Assembly: GCA_021296485.1 (NCBI GenBank)
Contig: JAGWAI010000009.1
Span: forward strand, 37,289 to 78,347
Reading direction: 5' to 3'
Length of the DNA stretch: 41,059 nt
DNA from: Acidobacteriota bacterium
Lineage (GTDB): Bacteria; Acidobacteriota; Vicinamibacteria; Vicinamibacterales; UBA8438
Below the pieces are notes generated by a model that did no database searches, was not told where the DNA came from, and saw nothing but the letters and a program-made list of their open reading frames with translations. How positions within the stretch are numbered: the stretch's first letter is position 1; each line of letters starts with the position of its first letter. Positions 1 through 10,121 of this stretch are shown one piece after another. The translations under genes were made by a program, and so were the position numbers.

Positions 1-279
1 GCGCACCCGCGCGGCCGCCACATCGATGTTGTCGTAACCCACCGCCACGTTGGCGATGATGCGCAGGTCGTCGGCCGCCTCGATGACCTGCCGGTCGATG
101 GCGTCGGTCACCAGGCAGACGAGCCCCTGCTTGCCCTTGACGCGTTCACGCAGCGCCGCGGGCGGCAGGCTGCCGCTGGCTGCGTGCAGATCGACGGCGC
201 ATGCGGATTCGAGCCGCGCCAGCGCCGCGCCCGGCAGGCGCCGGGTGACGAGAACCAGTGGTTTTTCTGCAGCGCTCAC
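1..279 (-). CDS. D-2-hydroxyacid dehydrogenase, N-terminal part (cut by window edge)
   Basis: The first 93 residues of a D-isomer-specific 2-hydroxyacid dehydrogenase (glyoxylate/hydroxypyruvate reductase type) are visible; the rest lies outside the window. The protein starts with GTG at 279 and shows the N-terminal substrate-domain pattern of the family: a beta strand of type PLVLVTRRLP near the start, then GLVCLVTDAIDRQVIEAA, then the hinge motif LRIIANVAVGYDNID just before the NAD domain. The start overlaps the stop of the upstream BMC-P gene by GTGA, which implies translational coupling to the shell operon. The enzyme could reduce or oxidise a hydroxyacid linked to microcompartment metabolism, but its substrate cannot be read from this fragment. 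Confidence 0.82.
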   Translation of the reverse strand, partial: MSAAEKPLVLVTRRLPGAALARLESACAVDLHAASGSLPPAALRERVKGKQGLVCLVTDAIDRQVIEAADDLRIIANVAVGYDNIDVAAARVR

Positions 280-566
280 GTGGCGCGTGGACGGGTGGAG
301 CCGGTGTCGATGGTGTCCACGACACCGACGATGGCGACATCGACCGGAGCGGCTCGGCGCCGCAGGGCCTGGCCGGCGGCGCGCCCCTCGATCACCAGCA
401 GGACGGTGTCTCCCACCCCGGCCTGCGCGGTGTCGACGGCCAGCAGCGGCCGTCCGTCGGGCGTGCCGGCGGCCGCAAGCGGCTGCACGAGCAGCAGCTT
501 CGCGCCGGTCAGCTTCTCGTTCTTGTGCGTGGCGACGACGTTGCCGGTGACCCTGCCCAATCGCAC
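276..566 (-). CDS. EutN/CcmL-family BMC-P pentameric shell protein (copy 1)
   Basis: A 96-residue bacterial microcompartment vertex protein. Members of this family form pentamers that cap the vertices of the icosahedral shell. The start is GTG at 566, two bases after the stop of the upstream paralogue. The family pattern is clear: an N-terminal RVTGNVVATHKNEKLTG, then KLLLVQPL, then a VDTAQAGVGDTVLLVIEG core and a C-terminal PVDVAIVGVVDTID strand. It is one of three tandem diverged paralogues, which is typical of BMC loci that carry three BMC-P genes. It overlaps the hydroxyacid dehydrogenase start by 4 bases. Confidence 0.9.
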   Translation of the reverse strand: MRLGRVTGNVVATHKNEKLTGAKLLLVQPLAAAGTPDGRPLLAVDTAQAGVGDTVLLVIEGRAAGQALRRRAAPVDVAIVGVVDTIDTGSTRPRAT

Positions 567-567
567 T

Positions 568-855
568 TCAGGAACCTGCCCGCGGCGTGTCGTCCGTGAA
601 CCAGGAATCCACGCTTGCGACGATCGCCGCGTCCGTCGGCACGCGCCGCGGCAGGAAGGGAAAGGATGCCTCGCGGCCGCGGACGAAGAAGACCGTCTCG
701 CCGACGCCCGCGCCGACCGAGTCCACGCCAACCAGGCTGGCGCCGGATGGATGGCCGTCGGGTCCCAGCGGCTGCAGCACCAGCAGCTTCAGGCCGTGCA
801 GGCCGGGATCCTTGCGCGTGGCGACGACCGTGCCCGAGACCCTCGCCAACTGCAC
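568..855 (-). CDS. EutN/CcmL-family BMC-P pentameric shell protein (copy 2)
   Basis: A 95-residue pentameric BMC vertex protein with a GTG start at 855. It has the family N-terminus QLARVSGTVVATRKDPGL, the KLLVLQPLGPDG strand, a VDSVGAGVGETVFFVRG core and an AIVASVDSW C-terminal strand. It differs from its neighbours in the loop after the core (REASFPFLPRRVP), so the three paralogues probably fill different vertices or load different surfaces. It sits 5 bases after copy 3 and 1 base before copy 1, and is certainly co-translated with them. Confidence 0.9.
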   Translation of the reverse strand: MQLARVSGTVVATRKDPGLHGLKLLVLQPLGPDGHPSGASLVGVDSVGAGVGETVFFVRGREASFPFLPRRVPTDAAIVASVDSWFTDDTPRAGS

Positions 856-860
856 CCGTG

Positions 861-1133
861 TCAGAGCTCCGCCAACTCGACCGTGTCGACGATACCTACC
901 ACGGCGGCGTCCACGGGGGTCTCTTGCAACTGGCCGGCCATCCGCGCCGAGCTGCCGCTGACGATCAGCACGGTTTCGCCGTATCCAGCATCGACCGTGT
1001 CGACCGCCACCAGCTGACCGCCGCGCGCCGCGCCGTTGGCGTCGAGCGGCTGCGCCACCAGCAGCTTGCTGCTGACCAGCCGTTCGTCCTTTTGCGTCGC
1101 GACGACCGTACCGACGATCTTGGCTAGTTGCAT
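861..1133 (-). CDS. EutN/CcmL-family BMC-P pentameric shell protein (copy 3)
   Basis: A 90-residue pentameric BMC vertex protein, ATG start at 1133. It is the shortest and most canonical of the three: QLAKIVGTVVATQKDERL, KLLVAQPLDANG, VDTVDAGYGETVLIVSGSSAR, then TPVDAAVVGIVDTVE. The GSSAR loop is the usual EutN/CcmL form. It is the first BMC-P gene in transcription order and is separated from the upstream BMC-H gene by a roughly 200-bp structured repeat, so expression of the vertex genes might be uncoupled from that of the hexamer gene. Confidence 0.92.
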   Translation of the reverse strand: MQLAKIVGTVVATQKDERLVSSKLLVAQPLDANGAARGGQLVAVDTVDAGYGETVLIVSGSSARMAGQLQETPVDAAVVGIVDTVELAEL

Positions 1134-1138
1134 TGCCT

Positions 1139-1344
1139 AGATGGGGCTGCGCCCCAAACCCCCGGCGGCCGCTTGCGGGGACCCCGGCGCCCCGCGCCGC
1201 CGCCGCCGAGCCGCGCCGTGCGCGGCTTGGGGACTGCCGCGCTCTTGCACGCAGTCCCCTCCAAATCCCACCGCTTGGTCACGCCATGCGGCATCAGTCA
1301 TATAGGGCGCTGCGCCCCAAACCCCCGGCCGCCGCCGAGCCGGT
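1139..1344 (+). repeat. Structured GC-rich intergenic repeat, copy R1 (near full length)
   Basis: This copy begins and ends with the palindromic core: GGGGCTGCGCCCC at 1143-1155 and a variant ending near 1318. Between them are a short hairpin (CCGCG/CGCGG, 1211-1225) and a longer one with arms GGGGACTGC (1229-1237) and GCAGTCCCC (1251-1259). The region after the second hairpin (CACGCCATGCGGCATCAGTC) is nearly identical in copy R3. The repeat separates the BMC-H gene from the BMC-P genes and its far end runs into the BMC-H stop codon. Function is unknown; a terminator, processing or REP-like role is possible. Confidence 0.85.
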
Positions 1345-1641
1345 CTAGCCTTCGGCGTCCGCGCCTGAGGTGCCGATCGGCAGCGTCTCTTCGAGGTTGG
1401 CATGTGGCCGCGGAATGACGTGCACGGCCACCAGCTCGCCGACGCGCCGGGCCGCCGCCGCGCCCGCGTCCGTGGCCGCCTTCACGGCCGCCACGTCGCC
1501 GCGCACGATGGCCGTAACGTAGCCCGCGCCGATCTTCTCCCAACCGACGAGCGTTACAGTGGCGGCCTTGACCATGGCGTCTGCCGCCTCGATCATGGCG
1601 ACCAGCCCCTTGGTTTCCACCATTCCCAAAGCCTCACCCAT
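1345..1641 (-). CDS. BMC-H hexameric microcompartment shell protein (PduA/EutM/CcmK family)
   Basis: A 98-residue single-BMC-domain protein that would form the hexameric facets of the shell. It starts at the ATG at 1641, preceded by a good ribosome site (AGGAGA); longer upstream reading runs only through repeat DNA. Signature elements are the N-terminus [21 protein letters not shown], the pore-loop region [20 protein letters not shown] (KIGAG at about 36-40, matching the KIGSG pore motif of PduA) and the AVHVIPRPH segment. The short C-terminal tail after NLEETLP is typical of carboxysome-unlike metabolosome hexamers. It is flanked by repeats on both sides and lies between the aldolase and the three BMC-P genes. 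Only one BMC-H is visible here. Confidence 0.93.
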
Positions 1642-1658
1642 GGTCTCCTCTTTATCAT

Positions 1659-1990
1659 CTCGGGGCTGCGCCCCGAACCCCCGGCGGCCGCTAGCGGGGA
1701 CCCCATAGCCCCGCGCCGCTGCCGCCGAGGCGCACCGTGTGCGCCTTACCCGTGGGGGGCTGCGCCCCGAACCCCCGGCGGCCGCTAGCGGGGACCCCAT
1801 AGCCCCGCGCGGTATTACCTGGATGGGGCTGCGCCCCAAGCCCCCGGCGGCCGCTAGCGGGGACCCCGTTGCCCCGCGCCGCGGCCGCCGGGTGCCGGCA
1901 GCGTCGATGCTTGCCGTCCCCTTCCTGCTTAGCCGTGCGACGGGGCTGAGCCCAATACCTCCGGCGGCGGCCACGTTTCCGTCACCACGG
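1659..1990 (+). repeat. Tandem partial copies of the structured GC-rich repeat (R2)
   Basis: The gap of about 350 bases between the aldolase and BMC-H genes is made almost entirely of repeat. The core GGGGCTGCGCCCC occurs at 1662-1674, 1756-1768 and 1825-1837, and a degenerate form lies near 1941-1953. Each of the first three is followed by a CCCCCGGCGGCCGCTAGC box and a GGGGACCCC box. The last unit carries a decayed version of the second hairpin (CTTGCCGTCCCC near 1910). No convincing gene is present. The array looks like successive insertions or local amplification of the same unit found at R1 and R3. Confidence 0.85.
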
Positions 1991-1997
1991 GCTGATA

Positions 1998-2855
1998 TCA
2001 GCGCAGCTGCCTCACGGCATCCTCGATGAGCGCCGCAAGCTCGCGGTATGTTAATCGAATTTCACTGTCCCGACCCAGTTGCGCCAGCGGGGCGGCCGGG
2101 CCCGTCACGACCTGCTGGCCGGGCGCGGACGGGGCCTGCACCACCTGGCAGTCCTGGTCCCCGTCGCCGGCGTCCGCCTCACCCGGCTCAGGACAGATCG
2201 GCGCCGGCGCCGCGATGCCGTACGAACCGCGCAACTCCTGAAGCCGCAGCACCTCCTCGCGGGACAACAGCCGTTCGCGACCGAGCGTGCGCGCCACCAG
2301 GCTGATGCGCGCGAAATGCTCGACGGTCTCCATCTTGTAATACGCGGCGTACAGGTCCCCCGCCACCGTCAGCGCGCCGTGGTTCGCCAGCAGCAGGCCG
2401 TCGTGCGCCTTGATGTACTGCCGCACGGCATCCGCCAGCTCCTGCGTGGAAGGCGTCCCGTAGTCGGCAATCGGAATGCTGCCGAGGGTCGTGATCACCT
2501 CGGCCAGCACGGCCCGATCCAGCGCAATTCCCGCCACGGCGAAACCCGTGGCGGTCGGCGGATGCGCGTGGACCACGGCGTTTATTTCCGGGCGGTTCTC
2601 GTATACCGCCAGGTGCATCAGCAACTCCGACGATGGGTCGCGCTGGCCGGCCAGCTTGCGCCCCTCGTAGTCGGTGACCACCATCATGTCGGCGGTCATG
2701 AACCCCTTGGATACTCCCTTGGGCGTGGTGAGCAGGCGGTCGTCGTCGAGCCGGACGCTGATGTTGCCGTCGTTGGACGCCACGTACGCGCGGGTGTGCA
2801 GGCGGCGCCCCAGCTCGACGATGTCCGCGCGCAGTTGCTCCTCGCGATGAGTCAT
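1998..2855 (-). CDS. Class II aldolase/adducin-family protein, probable microcompartment cargo (L-fuculose-phosphate aldolase-like)
   Basis: A 285-residue protein; the family core normally ends near residue 215. Class II aldolases cleave a sugar phosphate to dihydroxyacetone phosphate plus an aldehyde, using a zinc ion. Visible motifs are SNDGNIS (27-33), SSELLMH (75-81, with the expected catalytic Glu at 77), the zinc pair HAHPP (96-100) and NHG (158-160, expected third zinc His). After residue 215 comes a Pro/Ala/Gly/Gln-rich linker, then an amphipathic helix (about 263-285, [19 protein letters not shown]). This is the layout of a C-terminal BMC encapsulation peptide. The ATG at 2855 abuts repeat R3, so longer upstream reading is repeat-derived. 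An aldolase next to one BMC-H and three BMC-P genes matches fucose/rhamnose-type (PVM-like) BMCs. The exact sugar is inferred. Confidence 0.85.
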
Positions 2856-2861
2856 TGTCAG

Positions 2862-3058
2862 ATGGGGCTGCGCCCCAAACCCCCGGCAAGCCCTAGCGGG
2901 GACCCCGTAGCCCCGCGCCGGGCGTGCCGGGCCGCGCCGTGCGCGGCCTGGGGACGGCCGCGTCCATGCCTGCCGTCCCCTCCGCATTCCACCGCCGGAT
3001 CACGCCATGCGGCATCAGTCATATAAGGGGCTGCGCCCCAAACCCCCGGCAGGCGCTA
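2862..3058 (+). repeat. Structured GC-rich repeat, copy R3 (near full length)
   Basis: Core palindromes lie at 2864-2876 and 3027-3039. Stem arms GGCAAGCCC (2885-2893) and GGGCGTGCC (2920-2928) are complementary except for one position and differ in sequence from those of R5 and R6. A second hairpin has arms GGGGACGGC (2950-2958) and GCCGTCCCC (2972-2980), a compensatory change from ACTGC/GCAGT in R1. The far end supplies the TAG stop (3056-3058) of the YHS-like gene. The copy separates the cyclic-di-AMP operon from the BMC operon. Confidence 0.87.
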
Positions 3059-3316
3059 GCCCTCCATGAATGTCCGGCGGCACTTCTCCGAACAGAAATA
3101 ATGCACCTGTCCGCCGGTCCGCGCCTCCAGTGCGCGCGACTGCTGGACGTACGTCCCGCACACCGGGTCGCGCGCGAGCGCGAAGCTCTTGCCCGCACCG
3201 CTCTTCGGACGCCGCCGGGGCTCGGAGGCGCCTGCGAAGATACCGGCAAAGAAGCCCCACAGCGCCCGAATGATGAGCACGGCGATCAGCAGCCGGACGA
3301 GCCATCCACCGAACAT
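3056..3316 (-). CDS. Small membrane protein with YHS/TRASH-like metal-binding knuckle (PP0621-like)
   Basis: An 86-residue protein. Residues 5-28 form one hydrophobic membrane segment (LVRLLIAVLIIRALWGFFAG). The C-terminal part reads DPVCGTYV ... HYFCSEKCRRTF, the Cys-x(n)-CxxxC treble-clef pattern of YHS/TRASH-like domains that bind a metal such as zinc, iron or copper. It is the last gene of the folP-to-pdxJ operon, 11 bases after the TPR gene. Its stop codon lies at the end of repeat R3. The role is unknown; proteins of this shape are usually annotated as PP0621-family or as heavy-metal-binding. Confidence 0.7.
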   Translation of the reverse strand: MFGGWLVRLLIAVLIIRALWGFFAGIFAGASEPRRRPKSGAGKSFALARDPVCGTYVQQSRALEARTGGQVHYFCSEKCRRTFMEG

Positions 3317-3327
3317 CTGCTCTCACC

Positions 3328-3948
3328 TCATGGCCCGCCCGCCGAGCTGCCCGCGTCGAGGCCGCCGTGCGCCGCACCCAGGCGGTCGATGGCCTCGCGT
3401 GCGGCGTCGCTCTCGGGGCTGCCGGGCGCCGCGGCAATCACCTGCTCCCAGGCGTCCTGCGCGCCTTCCAGGTCCTGCAGGCCGAACGCCTTCACGATGC
3501 CCAGGCTGAGCAGCGCGCGCGGATGCTCCGGATTGGCCGCCAGCACCTGTTCAAAGGCCTCGACCGCGCGCTCGGACTCGCCGGCATAGAAATAGCTCAC
3601 CCCCAGGCTGGTACCTGCGTCCGCGTTGGCCGCGTCAAGGACCAGAACCTGCTCGTACCACGCAATCGCCTCTTCGAACTGCCGGGCCCCGAAGTAGAGA
3701 TCGCCGAGCGCCACGCGCGGTCCGGCGTCGTCGGGCGCCGCGGCGGCAGCCTCCTCGAGCGTCGCCACGCGGGCCGCATCGACCGCGGTCTCCTCCGGCG
3801 CCGAACCGGCGCCCAGCGCCGTCTCGGCCTGCTGATCGGCCGGCGGCTCCGGCGCCGTGGGCGGCCGCTCGCTCCAGACGATCCAGCCCATGACGGCGAT
3901 TGAAGACGCCGCGGCGACGGCCAGCACACCCCACTCACGCCCGCTCAT
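3328..3948 (-). CDS. Membrane-anchored tetratricopeptide-repeat protein
   Basis: A 206-residue protein with the start chosen at the ATG at 3948, one base after the pdxJ stop (TGACATG). Residues 6-25 form a membrane anchor (GVLAVAAASSIAVMGWIVW), followed by a Pro/Ala/Glu-rich linker to about residue 60. Then come three to four TPR units with typical residues (for example PRVALGDLYFGARQFEEAI, TSLGVSYFYAGESERAVEAF and ALLSLGIVKAFG). It resembles CcmH/NrfG-type TPR tails and probably scaffolds protein contacts on the outer face of the membrane. No specific partner can be named. Confidence 0.75.
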   Translation of the reverse strand: MSGREWGVLAVAAASSIAVMGWIVWSERPPTAPEPPADQQAETALGAGSAPEETAVDAARVATLEEAAAAAPDDAGPRVALGDLYFGARQFEEAIAWYEQVLVLDAANADAGTSLGVSYFYAGESERAVEAFEQVLAANPEHPRALLSLGIVKAFGLQDLEGAQDAWEQVIAAAPGSPESDAAREAIDRLGAAHGGLDAGSSAGGP

Positions 3949-3949
3949 G

Positions 3950-4666
3950 TCACGATGATAGCCGCAGCAGGGCAAGCATCTCGCGCACCGCACGATCCAT
4001 GCCGACCAGCACGGCGCGCGCGACGATGCTGTGGCCGATGTTCAACTCCTCGATCGCGGCGATTTCCGCGATCGGCCCGACGTTCTGATACGTCAGCCCG
4101 TGCCCGGCCAGCACCTCCAGGCCCCGGTCGGCCGCGACCGCGGCGGCCGCAGCCACCCGCTCCAACTGCTCCGCGCGCGCGTCCTCGGCGGCGTCGGCGT
4201 AGGGACCCGTGTTGATCTCGACGGCATCCGCGCCTGCCTCCGCCGCCGCCTCCACCTGCGCCCTGTCGGCGTCGATGAACAGGCTGGTGCGGATGCCGGC
4301 GCGGCGCACGCTCTGGACGACGATCCGCAATGCGGCGCTGTGGCGCGCCACGTCCAGGCCGCCGGTCGTCGTCAACTCCTCCGGCGTCTCGGGCACGAGC
4401 GTCACCTGGTGCGGCTTTACGCGCGCGGCGATGTCGATCATCTCCGGCGTGGCGGCCATCTCGACATTGAGCTTTGTCGCGACGACCTGGCGCAGCAACT
4501 CCAGATCGCGCTCCTGAATGTGCCGTCGATCGCCGCGCAGGTGCACGGTGATTCCGTGCGCCCCCGCGAGCTCGGCCAGCACGGCGGCCGCGACCGGCTC
4601 CGGCTCCGGGGCCAGCCGGGCCTGCCGCACGGTAGCGACGTGATCGATGTTGACTCCCAGGCGCAT
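3950..4666 (-). CDS. pdxJ: Pyridoxine 5'-phosphate synthase
   Basis: A 238-residue PdxJ of normal length. It condenses 1-deoxy-xylulose 5-phosphate with 3-amino-2-oxopropyl phosphate to make pyridoxine 5'-phosphate, the DXP-dependent route to vitamin B6. The N-terminus [17 protein letters not shown] is diagnostic. Also seen are [35 protein letters not shown] and the [10 protein letters not shown] segment. It follows glmM by 12 bases with a GGAGA ribosome site. pdxJ downstream of glmM is a recurring arrangement in several phyla. Confidence 0.96.
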
Positions 4667-4678
4667 GGGATTCTCCGG

Positions 4679-6001
4679 TCAGCCGAGTACTTCGTGGGCC
4701 GCCGCGGCGACCGTGTCCGCCAATTGCCGAACCGCCGCAGCCTCGCGGCCCTCGATCATGACCCGCAGCAGCGGCTCCGTCCCGGAGTACCGCACGAGGA
4801 CGCGACCGGCGTCGCCGAGGGTTTGCTCCGCGCCACGGATGGCCGACGCGATTCGCGGCTCGGACAGCAGGTCGGGCTTGGCGCGGACCGGGACGTTGAT
4901 CAGCACTTGCGGGTAGATTTCCAGGTCCTGCCGCAGGTCTGCAAGGTCGCGGCCGGTTTCGCCGATCACCTCGATGACCGACAACGCCGTCAACAACCCG
5001 TCGCCAGTCGGCAGCAACTCGGAGAAAATCAGGTGTCCCGACTGCTCGCCGCCCAGTGCGGCGCCGTGTGCGACCATCGCATCGCGCACCTGCCGGTCGC
5101 CGACCGGGCAGCGATGCACGGCTACGCCCGCGGCCCGCAGGCCGATTTCCAGCCCGACGTTGCTCATCACCGTGGCCACGACTGCGTTGCCCGGCAACCT
5201 GCCACAATCGTTCAGGAACCGGGCGCAAATGAACAGCATCGCGTCGCCGTCCACGACCTCACCGCGGTGATCGACCAGGATCACCCGGTCGCCGTCACCG
5301 TCGAATGCCAGACCGATCCGGCAGCCGTGGTCGATGACGGCCCGCTGCAGTCCCTCCGGATGCGTGGACCCGCAGTCGCGGTTGATGTTCCGGCCGTCCG
5401 GCGCGACATTCAACGCGACGACGTCGAAGTCGAGCCGGCGCAGCACTTCCGGCGCAGCCCGCGACATCGCGCCGTTGGCGCAGTCGACCGCAATGCGCAG
5501 GCGCGGCCGGGCGGCGCAATCCGCCAGCACACCGGCGGCGTGCGCGAGGTATGCGCCAGACAGATCCTGCGGCTCGGGCGCGGCGCGGTCGCACGGCGGC
5601 ACGTCCCACGATGCATCCATCACGCGCCTTTCGATCTCCGCTTCCAGCGCCGGAGAGGCCTTTCCGCCATCCGCGGCCAGCACCTTGATCCCGTTGTCGG
5701 GAGACGGATTGTGGGACGCCGACACCACCACGCCGCCGTCGAACGCGCCGGATGCCACCAGGTAGGCGGCGGCGGGCGTCGGCAGGACGCCGGCGCTCAC
5801 CAGCGTGCCGTGCTCGTGCGTAACACCGCGCGCGAGGTGCGCCTCGATCCAGGATCCGGACTCGCGGGTGTCGCGCGCCGCAAGGATGGTCACGCCGCGT
5901 GGGCCGAGCGCGCGCGCCGCCGCCGCGCCCAGGCGCGTGATGGTGCGCGCGTCGAGCGGCGCTCGTCCGGGAGTGCCGCGAACACCGTCAGTGCCGAACA
6001 T
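4679..6001 (-). CDS. glmM: Phosphoglucosamine mutase
   Basis: A 440-residue GlmM, close to the usual 445. It converts glucosamine 6-phosphate to glucosamine 1-phosphate for UDP-GlcNAc, and so for peptidoglycan. The sequence starts MFGTDGVRGTPG. The phosphoserine loop SASHNPSPDNGIK has the catalytic Ser at about residue 96, the metal-binding loop DGDGDR is at 234-239, the sugar-binding GGEQSGHLIF segment follows, and the C-terminal phosphate loop is RYSGTEPLLRVMIEG. In many bacteria GlmM is controlled by the cyclic-di-AMP synthase encoded next to it, here cdaA with cdaR just upstream. Confidence 0.96.
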   Translation of the reverse strand: MFGTDGVRGTPGRAPLDARTITRLGAAAARALGPRGVTILAARDTRESGSWIEAHLARGVTHEHGTLVSAGVLPTPAAAYLVASGAFDGGVVVSASHNPSPDNGIKVLAADGGKASPALEAEIERRVMDASWDVPPCDRAAPEPQDLSGAYLAHAAGVLADCAARPRLRIAVDCANGAMSRAAPEVLRRLDFDVVALNVAPDGRNINRDCGSTHPEGLQRAVIDHGCRIGLAFDGDGDRVILVDHRGEVVDGDAMLFICARFLNDCGRLPGNAVVATVMSNVGLEIGLRAAGVAVHRCPVGDRQVRDAMVAHGAALGGEQSGHLIFSELLPTGDGLLTALSVIEVIGETGRDLADLRQDLEIYPQVLINVPVRAKPDLLSEPRIASAIRGAEQTLGDAGRVLVRYSGTEPLLRVMIEGREAAAVRQLADTVAAAAHEVLG

Positions 6002-6015
6002 GCGAGTAGTCTGGT

Positions 6016-6402
6016 CTAGGGTTCATCGGCAACCTGCTCGAGAACCAGCGAGACGGTGGCCGGCACTACGCTCGTCACCTCAATCCCCGACGGCGTCCGC
6101 ACGCGCCCCGCGAACATGTCGAACGCATGCCGGCCCGGGCTGCCGCCGGAGAGGTCGAGCACCGCCGCCAGATCGTCGGACTCCACGCCGCTCACGACGT
6201 CGGCAGAGCCACGCAGCCGGACCCGCACGGCGTCCGGCGGGTCACCGGCTATCCGCAGCGTCCCGGGCACGTTCTCGAACTCGAGCGGCACCTCGAAACC
6301 ACGTTCGATGATCCGCTCGTCCGTCACGCTAAGCCACAGGAATACCGCAATGATGATCGCCAGCAACTTGAGGCTGAAGTCGCGGAAGGGAGCTATGGCC
6401 AT
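6016..6402 (-). CDS. cdaR: YbbR-domain protein, CdaR-like regulator of diadenylate cyclase
   Basis: A 128-residue protein with one N-terminal membrane segment (LKLLAIIIAVFLWLSVT) and a single extracytoplasmic YbbR-like domain (for example FEVPLEFENVPGTLRIAGDP and PSGIEVTSVVPATVSLVLE). CdaR of Firmicutes has four YbbR domains and modulates the membrane cyclase CdaA; this one is a minimal single-domain version. Its ATG shares one base with the cdaA stop (TAATG), so the two are translationally coupled. The role is inferred from gene order (cdaA-cdaR-glmM) and the domain. Confidence 0.85.
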   Translation of the reverse strand: MAIAPFRDFSLKLLAIIIAVFLWLSVTDERIIERGFEVPLEFENVPGTLRIAGDPPDAVRVRLRGSADVVSGVESDDLAAVLDLSGGSPGRHAFDMFAGRVRTPSGIEVTSVVPATVSLVLEQVADEP

Positions 6403-7223
6403 TACGGTGTCAGCGTCTGCCGATCCCTGCGGGCCAGCACGCGCCGCCCGGTCTGCAACATCAGCGCCTCCAGCCGGAAGCGGAGATCGTCGGACGCGAT
6501 CGGGCCCTCCACCTCGCCGTCGATCGCCAGCGACACGTCGCCGGTCTCCTCGGACACGATGAGCGCCACGGCGTCGGATTCCTCGGCCAACCCGATGGCG
6601 GCCCGGTGCCGCGCGCCGTAGCGCGTGCCGGCGCGCGTACTCACGGTCAGCGGAAGAAAGCACGCAGCGGCGGCAATCCGATTCTCCTGAATGATCACCG
6701 CGCCGTCGTGCAGCGGCGACTCCGTCTGGAAGATGCTGAGCAGCAGGTCGTACGTCACGGTCGAATCGATTGGGATGCCGCTCTCGATGTAATTGCGCAG
6801 GCCGACCGTCCTCTCCATCGCGATGATGGCCCCGATGCGCCGGCCGGCCAGCATTGTCGCCGCCACGACTATCTCCTCGATCGTCTCGTCGGTCGTGGTC
6901 GGGCGGGTCAGGTAACGGAAGAACCGCGCCCGTCCGAGATTGGACAGACCGCGCCGGATGTCGCTCTGGAACAGCACGATCGCCGCGAACACGATGTATC
7001 CGAGCATGTCGCTGACGAGCCAGTTGAGCGTCGGCAGCGGCGCCAGCTCCGACACGTAGTACAACGCCACCAGCAACCCGGCGCCGAACACCATCTGAAC
7101 CGCCCCGGTGCGCTGGATCAGCTTGAGGACCGCATAGATCAGGAACGCCACGACCGCCAGATCGGCGAACGCCAACCAGCCGGCGGAACCCTCGGGCCAG
7201 ACGTTAAGCAGATATTCGATCAT
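6402..7223 (-). CDS. cdaA: Membrane diadenylate cyclase (c-di-AMP synthase, CdaA family)
   Basis: A 273-residue CdaA. It makes cyclic-di-AMP from two ATP. Residues 15-90 hold three hydrophobic segments, and the DAC (DisA_N) domain follows from about 100. The catalytic motifs are intact: HDGAVII at 172-178 and RHRAAIGL at 205-212. The start overlaps the 3' ORF of folP by four bases (ATGA). Cyclic-di-AMP usually controls potassium and osmolyte transport and wall homeostasis; no riboswitch or effector is visible here. Confidence 0.95.
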   Translation of the reverse strand: MIEYLLNVWPEGSAGWLAFADLAVVAFLIYAVLKLIQRTGAVQMVFGAGLLVALYYVSELAPLPTLNWLVSDMLGYIVFAAIVLFQSDIRRGLSNLGRARFFRYLTRPTTTDETIEEIVVAATMLAGRRIGAIIAMERTVGLRNYIESGIPIDSTVTYDLLLSIFQTESPLHDGAVIIQENRIAAAACFLPLTVSTRAGTRYGARHRAAIGLAEESDAVALIVSEETGDVSLAIDGEVEGPIASDDLRFRLEALMLQTGRRVLARRDRQTLTP

Positions 7224-7633
7224 CGGTCTGCGGTCCGCTCAATCCGTCCTGCGCCGTTCGCACCCGACGCGCGTGCGGAAAGCGATTCGTCGCGCAGCCG
7301 GTCGGCCACGCGCACTACCTGGACCATCGCCCGCACGCCGTGGACACGTACGATATGCGCGCCCGACAGAACGGCTCCGGCCACTGCCGCGGCGGTGCCC
7401 CACTCGCGCTCTCCGGGCGGGCATTCGCCGACAACTTCCTGGAGAAACGACTTCCGGGAAGGACCGACGAGCAGCGGCCGATCGAGCGCCGCGAGGGCGT
7501 CGAGCCGCGCCAACACCGCAAACGTCTGGTCCGCCCGCTTGGCGAACCCGAGCCCGGGATCGAGAATGACCTGCTCGCGCCGTATCCCGGCCGCCGCCGC
7601 GCGTCCGAGCGCAGCTTCCAGCTCCCGCGCCAC
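7220..7633 (-). CDS. folP: Dihydropteroate synthase, C-terminal fragment (frame-disrupted folP)
   Basis: A 137-residue ORF covering the C-terminal half of DHPS, beginning at a GTG that overlaps the TAG stop of the N-terminal fragment (TAGTG at about 7633). It carries VILDPGLGFAK, the pABA/sulfonamide-region loop GPSRKSFL, and the final strand HIVRVHGVRAM, where the family normally has RVHDV, so the Asp is Gly here. Relative to typical DHPS, roughly seven residues of the loop after MYRRAA seem missing together with the frame. The parts may make a split enzyme by translational coupling, or folP may be broken, or the sequence may contain an indel error. Confidence 0.8.
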   Translation of the reverse strand: MARELEAALGRAAAAGIRREQVILDPGLGFAKRADQTFAVLARLDALAALDRPLLVGPSRKSFLQEVVGECPPGEREWGTAAAVAGAVLSGAHIVRVHGVRAMVQVVRVADRLRDESLSARASGANGAGRIERTADR

Positions 7634-8121
7634 TAAGCGGCCCGGCGGTACATGTCGCGGGAGCGGCCCCGCATGTGCATCAGCACGACCGGGGCGCCGG
7701 CGGCCGCGACGACCTGCGCCAGATCCGGATCATAGCTCAGCCCCGAAACGTCGTTCACGATCGCGGCGCCATGATCCAGTGCCTGGCGCGCGACTTCCGC
7801 TTTGTACGTATCGACCGAGACCGGCACCCGCAACCTCGGCGCCAGACGCCGCAGCACCGGGATGACACGCGACGCTTCCTCGGTGGCCGGCAACTCCGCC
7901 GCGCCGGGCCGCGTCGATTCCCCGCCGATATCGATGATGTCCGCCCCCGACTGCTCGAGCGCGAGCGCGGCGTCCGCCGCCCGGCCCGGCTCCAGGTACG
8001 CACCGCCGTCGGCGAACGAGTCCGGGGTGACGTTGACAATCCCCATGACCAACGTGCGGTCACCCAGGGCCAGCCCGCGGCCACCCGGCAGACTCAGCGT
8101 GTAGCGGGCTCGCCGAAACAT
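7633..8121 (-). CDS. folP: Dihydropteroate synthase, N-terminal fragment (frame-disrupted folP)
   Basis: A 162-residue ORF with the N-terminal half of DHPS, which joins pABA to a pterin pyrophosphate in folate synthesis. Seen are MGIVNVTPDSFADGG, the IDIGGESTRPGA motif, VPVSVDTYKAEVA, AIVNDVSGL and VVLMHMRG. It ends at an in-frame TAG just after DMYRRAA, exactly where the family continues into a helix that the next ORF resumes in another frame. It is the first gene of the folP-cdaA-cdaR-glmM-pdxJ operon; repeat R4 lies directly upstream. Confidence 0.85.
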   Translation of the reverse strand: MFRRARYTLSLPGGRGLALGDRTLVMGIVNVTPDSFADGGAYLEPGRAADAALALEQSGADIIDIGGESTRPGAAELPATEEASRVIPVLRRLAPRLRVPVSVDTYKAEVARQALDHGAAIVNDVSGLSYDPDLAQVVAAAGAPVVLMHMRGRSRDMYRRAA

Positions 8122-8130
8122 TTCCTTAGA

Positions 8131-8204
8131 CGGGGCTGCGCGGCGTTACCACTTGGTGGGGCTGCGCCCCACAACCCCCGGCGGCCGCTAGCGGGGCGCG
8201 GGGA
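8131..8204 (+). repeat. Structured GC-rich repeat, short copy R4
   Basis: A truncated copy between ftsH and folP. It has a partial core at 8132-8139, a full GGGGCTGCGCCCC at 8158-8170, and the CCCCGGCGGCCGCTAGCGGGG box following it. The long second hairpin is absent. The unit ends at the ftsH stop codon. Confidence 0.75.
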
Positions 8205-10121
8205 CTATTCCTGCGGTATCGCCTTGTCGAGTGACGGAACGGAGGGCACGACTGTGGTGGACCGGTCTTCGGGACGATCCGTCTCGCCGCCGGACGGCGT
8301 GTGCCGGGAATTGGTGCTTACCGGCTCCTCGATCCGCAGCCCCTTGGCGATCCGCCGCACCTGGTCGGCGTCGAGCACCTCGCGGATCAGCAATTCCTCG
8401 GCGATCCGCGTGAGCTCCTGCTTGTGGGCTGACAGCGCCTCCCGCGCACGGTCGTAGTTGCCGGTCACGATCCGCTTCACTTCGCGGTCAATCCTGATGG
8501 CGCTGTCCTCGCTGTAGTCCTGCTGCTGGGAAATGTCGCGGCCAAGGAAGATCTGCTCCTCCTTCTTGCCGAACGTGAGCGGGCCCATTTCGTCGCTCAT
8601 GCCCCACTCGCACACCATGCGCCGCGCCATCTCGGTGGCCCGTTCCAGATCGTTACCGGCGCCGGTCGTGACGTTGCCGTTCGTCAGCTCTTCCGCAATC
8701 CGTCCGCCGAGCAGGATGGCAATCTGGTCGTTGAGGTAGTCGCGCGAGTAGTTGTGCTTGTCGTCGACCGGGAGCTGCTGGGTAACCCCCAGCGCCATTC
8801 CGCGCGGGATGATGGTGACCTTGTGGATTGGATCGGCGTTCGGGAGCAGCACCGTGAGCAGCGCATGCCCCGCCTCGTGTACCGCGGTGATCTGCTTCTC
8901 CTCGTCGCTGATGATCATCGAGCGCCGCTCGGAGCCCATCAGCACCTTGTCCTTGGCGAACTCGAAGTCGTCCATCCGCACGACCTTCTGGCTGTAGCGG
9001 GCCGCGTTGAGCGCCGCCTCGTTCACCAGGTTCGCCAGGTCGGCGCCCGAAAAGCCGGAGGTTCCCCGCGCCAGCACGTGCGTGTCGACGTCGTCCGACA
9101 GCGGAATCTTGCGGGTGTGAACGCCCAGGATGCCGTCGCGGCCCTTCACGTCGGGCCGGTTCACGACGATGCGGCGGTCGAAACGGCCGGGCCGCAGCAA
9201 CGCCGGGTCGAGCACGTCGGGTCGGTTCGTCGCCGCCACCAGGATGACGCCCTCGTTCGACTCGAAGCCGTCCATCTCGACGAGCAGTTGATTCAGTGTC
9301 TGCTCGCGCTCGTCGTGTCCGCCGCCGAGTCCCGCGCCGCGGTGCCGGCCGACGGCGTCGATCTCATCGATGAAGACGATGCAGGGGGCGTTCTTCTTGC
9401 CCTGCTCGAACAGGTCACGCACGCGGGATGCGCCCACGCCGACGAACATTTCGACGAAATCGGAACCGCTGATCGAGAAGAACGGCACGTTCGCCTCGCC
9501 CGCCACGGCGCGCGCAAGAAGCGTCTTGCCCGTTCCGGGCGGCCCCATCAGCAGCACGCCCTTCGGAATGCGGCCGCCGAGCTTCTGGAACTTCTGCGGT
9601 TCCTTCAGGAACTCGATGATCTCCTGCAGCTCCTCCTTCGGCTCGTCAACGCCCGCGACGTCCTTGAAGGTGACCTTCTTCTGCGTGTTGGACGACAGCT
9701 TGGCGCGGCTGCGTCCGAACGACAGCGCCTTGTTGCCGCTGTTCTTCATCTGGCGCATGAAGAAGATCCAGAAGCCGATGATCAGCAGGAACGGCGCCCA
9801 CGAGTACAGCAGCGTCGCCCACGCACTGTTCTCCGCCTCCCGTGCCGTGACCGCCACGTCCCGGTCGACCAACTGGTTGACGAGGCCCTCGTACTGCGGC
9901 GGCGCGTAGGTGCGGAAACGGTCGCCCGCCGTCAGCGTGCCGGTGATCTCGTTACCTGCGATCGTGACGGTCTCGACCTGTCCGGCATCGACCCAGCGCA
10001 CGAACTCGCTGAAGCTGGCCGAGTTGTCGCCGGTCTGGAACTGCGTGGAGAAGCTCCAGATCATGACCACGACGACGACCAGGACGACCCAGAAGACGAG
10101 ACTGCGCACGGTCGAATTCAA
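8205..10121 (-). CDS. ftsH: ATP-dependent zinc metalloprotease FtsH
   Basis: A 638-residue FtsH, a membrane AAA+ protease that degrades damaged membrane proteins and regulators. It has a first membrane segment at 9-25, a periplasmic domain, a second membrane segment at about 104-122, Walker A GPPGTGKT at 193-200, Walker B IVFIDEID at 248-255, the second region of homology around [20 protein letters not shown], and zinc site HEAGH at 415-419. The start is TTG at 10121, chosen because GGAGGG lies six bases upstream and the residues following ([15 protein letters not shown]) form the expected first membrane segment. The C-terminal tail after about 600 is polar and variable, as usual. Confidence 0.97.

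Follow-up and report, generated by a model that had tools for sequence, protein, structure and literature searches.

A probable C-terminal encapsulation peptide on the class II aldolase of an ACI-type BMC locus in Acidobacteriota

The locus and its satellite

The window, a stretch of 41,059 nucleotides from an Acidobacteriota bacterium of the order Vicinamibacterales, carries near one of its ends a gene for a class II aldolase, which is followed downstream and on the same strand by genes for a BMC-H shell hexamer and three BMC-P shell pentamers and by the start of a gene for a 2-hydroxyacid dehydrogenase (Table 1). The dehydrogenase gene runs out of the window, and its 3′ part, separated from the 5′ part by a masked stretch, likewise matches 2-hydroxyacid dehydrogenase models. 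The aldolase frame ends at position 1998 of the minus strand and most likely starts at the ATG at 2855, giving a product of 285 residues; a longer open reading frame of 329 residues extends back into an intergenic repeat. A GC-rich interspersed repeat occurs in the intergenic spaces to either side of the aldolase (1139-1335, 1658-1892 and 2860-3056) and again at 8158. It is built of units of about 70 nt within copies of about 197 nt, one 71-nt unit having 58 matches in the genome, and looks like a REP/MITE-like family. No Rfam match was obtained in positions 1-9000 of the window.

Table 1. Features of the aldolase locus and its satellite (window positions, unless a locus is named)
Feature	Position	Strand	Evidence
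2-Hydroxyacid dehydrogenase, 5′ part, leaves window	1..279	(-)	PF00389; 3′ part L002:18600-19097
BMC-P shell pentamer gene 3	276..566	(-)	PF03319
BMC-P shell pentamer gene 2	568..855	(-)	PF03319
BMC-P shell pentamer gene 1	861..1133	(-)	PF03319
BMC-H shell hexamer gene	1345..1641	(-)	PF00936 E 9.6e-30; aligns to PduA 3ngk
Class II (FucA-like) aldolase gene, 285 aa	1998..2855	(-)	PF00596 E 4.8e-48; FucA fold Z 27.8
Terminal amphipathic helix, residues 265-285, probable encapsulation peptide	2001..2063	(-)	pN/pS 0.25; AF2 helix
Distal flexible linker, residues 251-264	2064..2105	(-)	pN/pS 0.85; pLDDT <50 at 258-265
Conserved island 2, residues 236-250 (Cys-Gln ... Ala-Pro ... Arg-Leu-Val)	2106..2150	(-)	conservation, pN/pS, pLDDT
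Proximal variable spacer, residues 223-235	2151..2189	(-)	pN/pS 0.83
Conserved island 1, residues 214-222, junction Cys221	2190..2216	(-)	C221, A218 in 103/103
Small YHS-domain protein, hydrophobic N-terminus, just upstream of aldolase	3056..3316	(-)	PF04945
Satellite aldehyde dehydrogenase (AldDh)	L126:6756-8519	(-)	EutE-like

In the genome as a whole (2.38 Mb, 88% complete) there is one PF00596 gene, together with two PF00936 genes and three PF03319 genes, the latter being the triplet of the window. The second BMC-H gene lies on contig C81, where it adjoins the gene for an EutE-like AldDh of 587 residues; the genome has four PF00171 matches, all of them off C36, the contig of the main locus, and the EutE-like one is that on C81. 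The satellite AldDh bears a C-terminal extension of about 130 residues, in which P/A-rich linkers surround a helix resembling an encapsulation peptide (EP) and are followed by a conserved small domain (FVCEDDVR ... TIITPAARDL).

The available excerpt of the published catalogue (Sutter 2021, PMC8217296) describes the ACI type of Acidobacteria as a class II aldolase with a C-terminal EP, a hydroxyacid dehydrogenase, a BMC-P triplet and a BMC-H, with the AldDh on a satellite locus. Feature by feature, the present locus is of this type: it holds a PF00596 aldolase with a C-terminal EP (by sequence and prediction), a PF00389/PF02826 dehydrogenase, the BMC-P triplet and at least one BMC-H, the AldDh is found on a satellite locus, the named close relatives are mostly Acidobacteria or Vicinamibacterales, and no difference in gene content from that excerpt was seen. 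In the published type the AldDh also groups near MIC3 in phylogeny. The C-terminal EP of the ACI aldolase is therein already published, and the helix as such is not new. The earlier note had suggested a comparison with PVM aldolases; a PVM assignment was rejected, the gene content being that of ACI. PVM loci (fucose/rhamnose) also have a PF00596 aldolase as candidate signature enzyme, but they hold the AldDh in the main locus (PMC4207490), whereas here it lies outside and a D-2-hydroxyacid dehydrogenase inside; the two are set apart by locus layout. Records whose titles name Cyanobacteria, Acidimicrobiia or Sulfopaludibacter (L154, L159-L163, L168, L203) also hold ACI-like loci of the window's type; they are probably mislabelled metagenome bins.

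The aldolase fold and its C-terminal extension

The Pfam Aldolase_II match spans residues 11-185 of the protein, and E. coli FucA is matched in structure (Z 27.8, rmsd 1.7) over residues 3-211/213, so that the FucA-like fold ends at about residue 213 of 285 and a tail of about 70 residues is left, in agreement with the extension first noticed in the sequence. The stretch 2001-2210 then singled out corresponds to residues 216-285, and the letters of its helix (residues 266-284) had been read correctly. Residues E77, H96, H98 and H159, which by position we take to be the zinc ligands and acid of FucA, are invariant in two alignments, of 21 and 60 sequences (A1 and A2). The aldolase and FucA have in common the fold to about residue 213 and these catalytic residues, while FucA chains stop at the fold (214-215 residues) and the aldolase adds the tail. 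A substrate name was dropped, since every NCBIfam aldolase model shown scored below its cut-off (for example, 122 vs 264 bits).

For comparison, the fetched loci supplied 187 class II aldolases that were distinct and complete. Of these, 103 make up an order-level set, drawn from loci L004-L191 on the basis of score (375 bits or more), completeness and distinctness, and so not a random sample. Duplicates from the genome itself, including the partial rows L129 and L131 of the window gene, are excluded from both counts, and pN/pS was computed over 400 of 964 pairs.

The terminal amphipathic helix

AlphaFold2, run on a 60-row alignment (mean pLDDT 90), predicts a helix at residues 270-284 with a pLDDT of about 91, and the most amphipathic 18-mers of the whole aldolase lie within residues 265-285. 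The hydrophobic moment of residues 268-285 was matched by 631 of 20,000 shuffles (p ~0.03), while a shuffle test carried out on each ortholog was passed at 0.05 by 59 of the 103; taken alone, the amphipathicity of the window helix is only modest. Positions 268, 273, 276, 277, 280, 281 and 284, in turn, are hydrophobic in all 103 order-level orthologs, and the pN/pS of the helix is 0.25, against 0.20 for the fold and 0.83 and 0.85 for the flanking spacers. The helix is under purifying selection. The amphipathic terminal helix claimed earlier is thus borne out, and the aldolase C-terminus displays the terminal amphipathic helix of 15-20 residues by which EPs are recognised. Outside the order, the structure predicted for a Firmicutes relative has this layout too, a disordered stretch leading into a helix at 250-269, and a terminal helix is present in other families and phyla as well.

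Conserved islands and cysteines ahead of the helix

Linker-like behaviour is limited to residues ~223-235 and 251-264. The description of everything ahead of the helix as one disordered linker is contradicted by the conserved islands, by pN/pS and by pLDDT: it holds for these two segments, but not for residues 214-222 and 236-250, which are conserved. Pairwise identity averages 0.77 for the fold and 0.73 for the helix; it is 0.71 over residues 214-222 and 0.53 over residues 237-248, and drops to 0.27-0.30 in the spacers. Similarly, pN/pS is 0.29 for residues 210-222 and 0.43 for residues 236-250, and AlphaFold2 assigns a pLDDT of about 80 to the block 231-250. Within the second island, C236 and Q237 are found in 103 of 103 orthologs, A241 in 100 and P242 in 101. 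PMC12339742, in the part available, characterises the linkers of EPs as disordered and of low conservation. Residues 251-264 behave in this way, while the conserved islands 214-222 and 236-250 break this published rule, and such conservation of part of the stretch ahead of the helix was unexpected.

Each island contains an invariant cysteine: all 103 order-level orthologs have Cys221 and all have Cys236, and position 221 is in every one of them the first cysteine of the tail. A tail cysteine also occurs in 54 of 56 tails from outside the order, mostly 10-18 residues past Arg209, which brings the overall count to 157 of 159 tails, Firmicutes included. Firmicutes tails bear CxxC runs, and CxxC is found in 18 of the 56 non-order tails. 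An earlier count, with duplicates still in, gave a cysteine density of 2.7% in tails vs 0.6% in the fold. Short tails lack cysteine in 27 of 28 cases, but this is weak evidence, as many such tails end ahead of the cysteine position. Cys221 and Cys236 could possibly form a clamp, a metal site or a disulfide.

Association of the tail with shell genes

Among the 187 aldolases, tail and flanking shell genes occur together in 150, shell genes without a tail in 2, a tail without shell genes in 9 and neither in 26. In other words, BMC-linked aldolases are tailed in 150 of 152 cases and those without nearby shell genes are untailed in 26 of 35. The order-level set has both in all of its 103 members; for the wider FucA-like clade the corresponding figures are 47 with both, 2 with shell genes without a tail, 9 with a tail without flanking shell genes and 9 with neither. 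Neither a tail nor flanking shell genes were found in any of 17 more distant PF00596 proteins of the order genomes. The observation named beforehand as refuting the targeting idea, a class II aldolase of a related genome that bears the same tail but lies outside any BMC locus, was looked for and did not turn up among these non-FucA-like enzymes, 17 of 17 being untailed.

The association is strong but imperfect. Five of the nine tailed, unlinked aldolases come from genomes with a BMC-H elsewhere and one (G363) from a genome with a weak partial match, while for the remaining three no BMC-H match was found, namely in the L206 bin and in the genomes G244 (94% complete) and G451 (100% complete). 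BMC-H was found in none of seven untailed FucA-like genomes outside the class, and the genomes of the untailed rows G009 and G017 do carry it. Two aldolases (L093, from G013, and L094, from G009) sit directly beside a BMC-H and three BMC-P genes and have no tail; a third untailed aldolase (L250) lies about 18 kb from BMC genes. Three order genomes (G113, G086, G137) have PF00936 genes without a close aldolase match, perhaps through a gap in the assembly or because their cargo is a different one. For gains and losses of tail and BMC the tree yielded 2 supported independent pairs, with 1.4 changes in the same way and 0 in the opposite, and there are too few independent changes for power; this tree still contained the partial duplicate rows L129 and L131.

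Of the 103 order-level loci, 101 carry the YHS gene upstream of the aldolase and on the same strand, as against 0 of the 35 loci that lack shell genes, and the product of this gene is possibly an unnamed part of the ACI system.

A targeting role for the helix and its alternatives

On these grounds, the final ~20 residues of the enzyme very probably form a C-terminal EP that would draw the enzyme into the lumen of an ACI-type metabolosome, as the earlier note had proposed. The support comes from the position of the helix, its prediction, the purifying selection acting on it, its conservation in 103 of 103 orthologs, the fact that the tail is mostly absent without BMC neighbours and the published ACI EP. 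By analogy, its mechanism would most likely be that of metabolosome EPs, namely a tethered amphipathic helix binding between BMC-H tiles and to other EPs. Specifically, a zinc aldolase of FucA fold, presumably a tetramer, would bear a short tether (residues 251-264) ending in the conserved helix. The exposed helices may bind one another as well as a hydrophobic groove on the luminal face of the BMC-H sheets, and this binding would gather the aldolase into the lumen, where its aldehyde product would pass to the acylating AldDh encoded at the satellite locus.

The EP of PduP is likewise an amphipathic helix, of about 18 residues, on a flexible tether, and the spacing L-x-x-L-[IV]-x-x-A-[VI] of the aldolase helix is, as we take it, also that of PduP. 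The PduP peptide is N-terminal, whereas that of the aldolase is C-terminal; moreover, of the oppositely charged pair one helical turn apart that characterises metabolosome EPs, acidic 278 with basic 282 is kept in only 64 of 103 aldolases and acidic 279 with basic 282 in 83, and part of the stretch ahead of the tether is conserved in the aldolase. As for the shell partner, the BMC-H of the window has alanine at all five EP-docking positions of PduA (A22, A26, A55, A59 and A62), presuming a numbering offset of one residue between the two proteins. These small groove residues may lend weak support to EP docking, since BMC-H proteins are generally alike at those positions. The docking site is taken from the available part of PMC11157265, which also gives I10 and L14 of PduP as needed for packaging.

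A different, rather unlikely, account would make of the helix mainly a glue between cargo proteins, forming bundles and condensing the core with no shell contact of its own, so that packaging would proceed by co-condensation with other cargo such as AldDh. Trimeric bundles and condensates of metabolosome EPs have indeed been reported (PMC12339742, in the part available), and in most of 20 orthologs of the AldDh family, judged by eye, an EP-like helix lies between variable linkers, which equally fits targeting shared with the aldolase. The same literature, however, assigns EPs both roles, and the PduL/PduA work, in the excerpt available, supports binding between shell tiles (PMC11157265). Glue and shell binding are inseparable by sequence.

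The conserved islands raise the further possibility that the tail belongs to the enzyme itself: at the mouth of the active site it might serve as a lid, as a clamp working by redox or through a metal, or as a lock on the oligomer, its helix packing on another subunit with no role in targeting. The invariant Cys221 and Cys236, the pLDDT of residues 231-250 and the near-universal tail cysteine across phyla would suit such a function. It would account for the islands, but not for a helix whose tether evolves almost neutrally, and not for the co-occurrence of tail and shell genes, and we regard it as improbable. That the tail is no more than a neutral lineage-specific extension is hardly credible: the near-neutral linker parts (pN/pS 0.83-0.85) are what it would predict, but the contrast in selection between helix and linker already disfavours it, as do the invariant positions and the recurrence of a terminal helix in other families and phyla.

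Returning to the encapsulation peptide, a tentative extension, possible but short of an even chance, is that the tail is a two-part device, in which the known encapsulation helix is joined to a cysteine clamp at the fold/linker junction that works within the shell as a switch of redox or metal type. The clamp would consist of Cys221, with Cys236 in the order and CxxC runs in Firmicutes, and it would accompany tailed, mostly BMC-linked aldolases across phyla. If confirmed, it would lock the tail or the oligomer, or tie the aldolase to other cysteine-bearing cargo; the C-terminal domain of AldDh likewise keeps Phe-Val-Cys-Glu. The available excerpt of the ACI description (PMC8217296) makes no mention of the tail islands, the tail cysteines or the YHS gene, and among the titles and abstract openings covered no report was found on aldolase tail cysteines, Vicinamibacter BMCs or the YHS link.

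The BMC type is already described. What this analysis adds is the quantitative case, together with its exceptions, and the cysteine conservation in the tail. A targeting helix that had only been named in the catalogue, in a BMC type of Acidobacteria, now has strong comparative support, and the two conserved cysteines and the YHS-domain neighbour emerge as parts of the organelle that can be tested.
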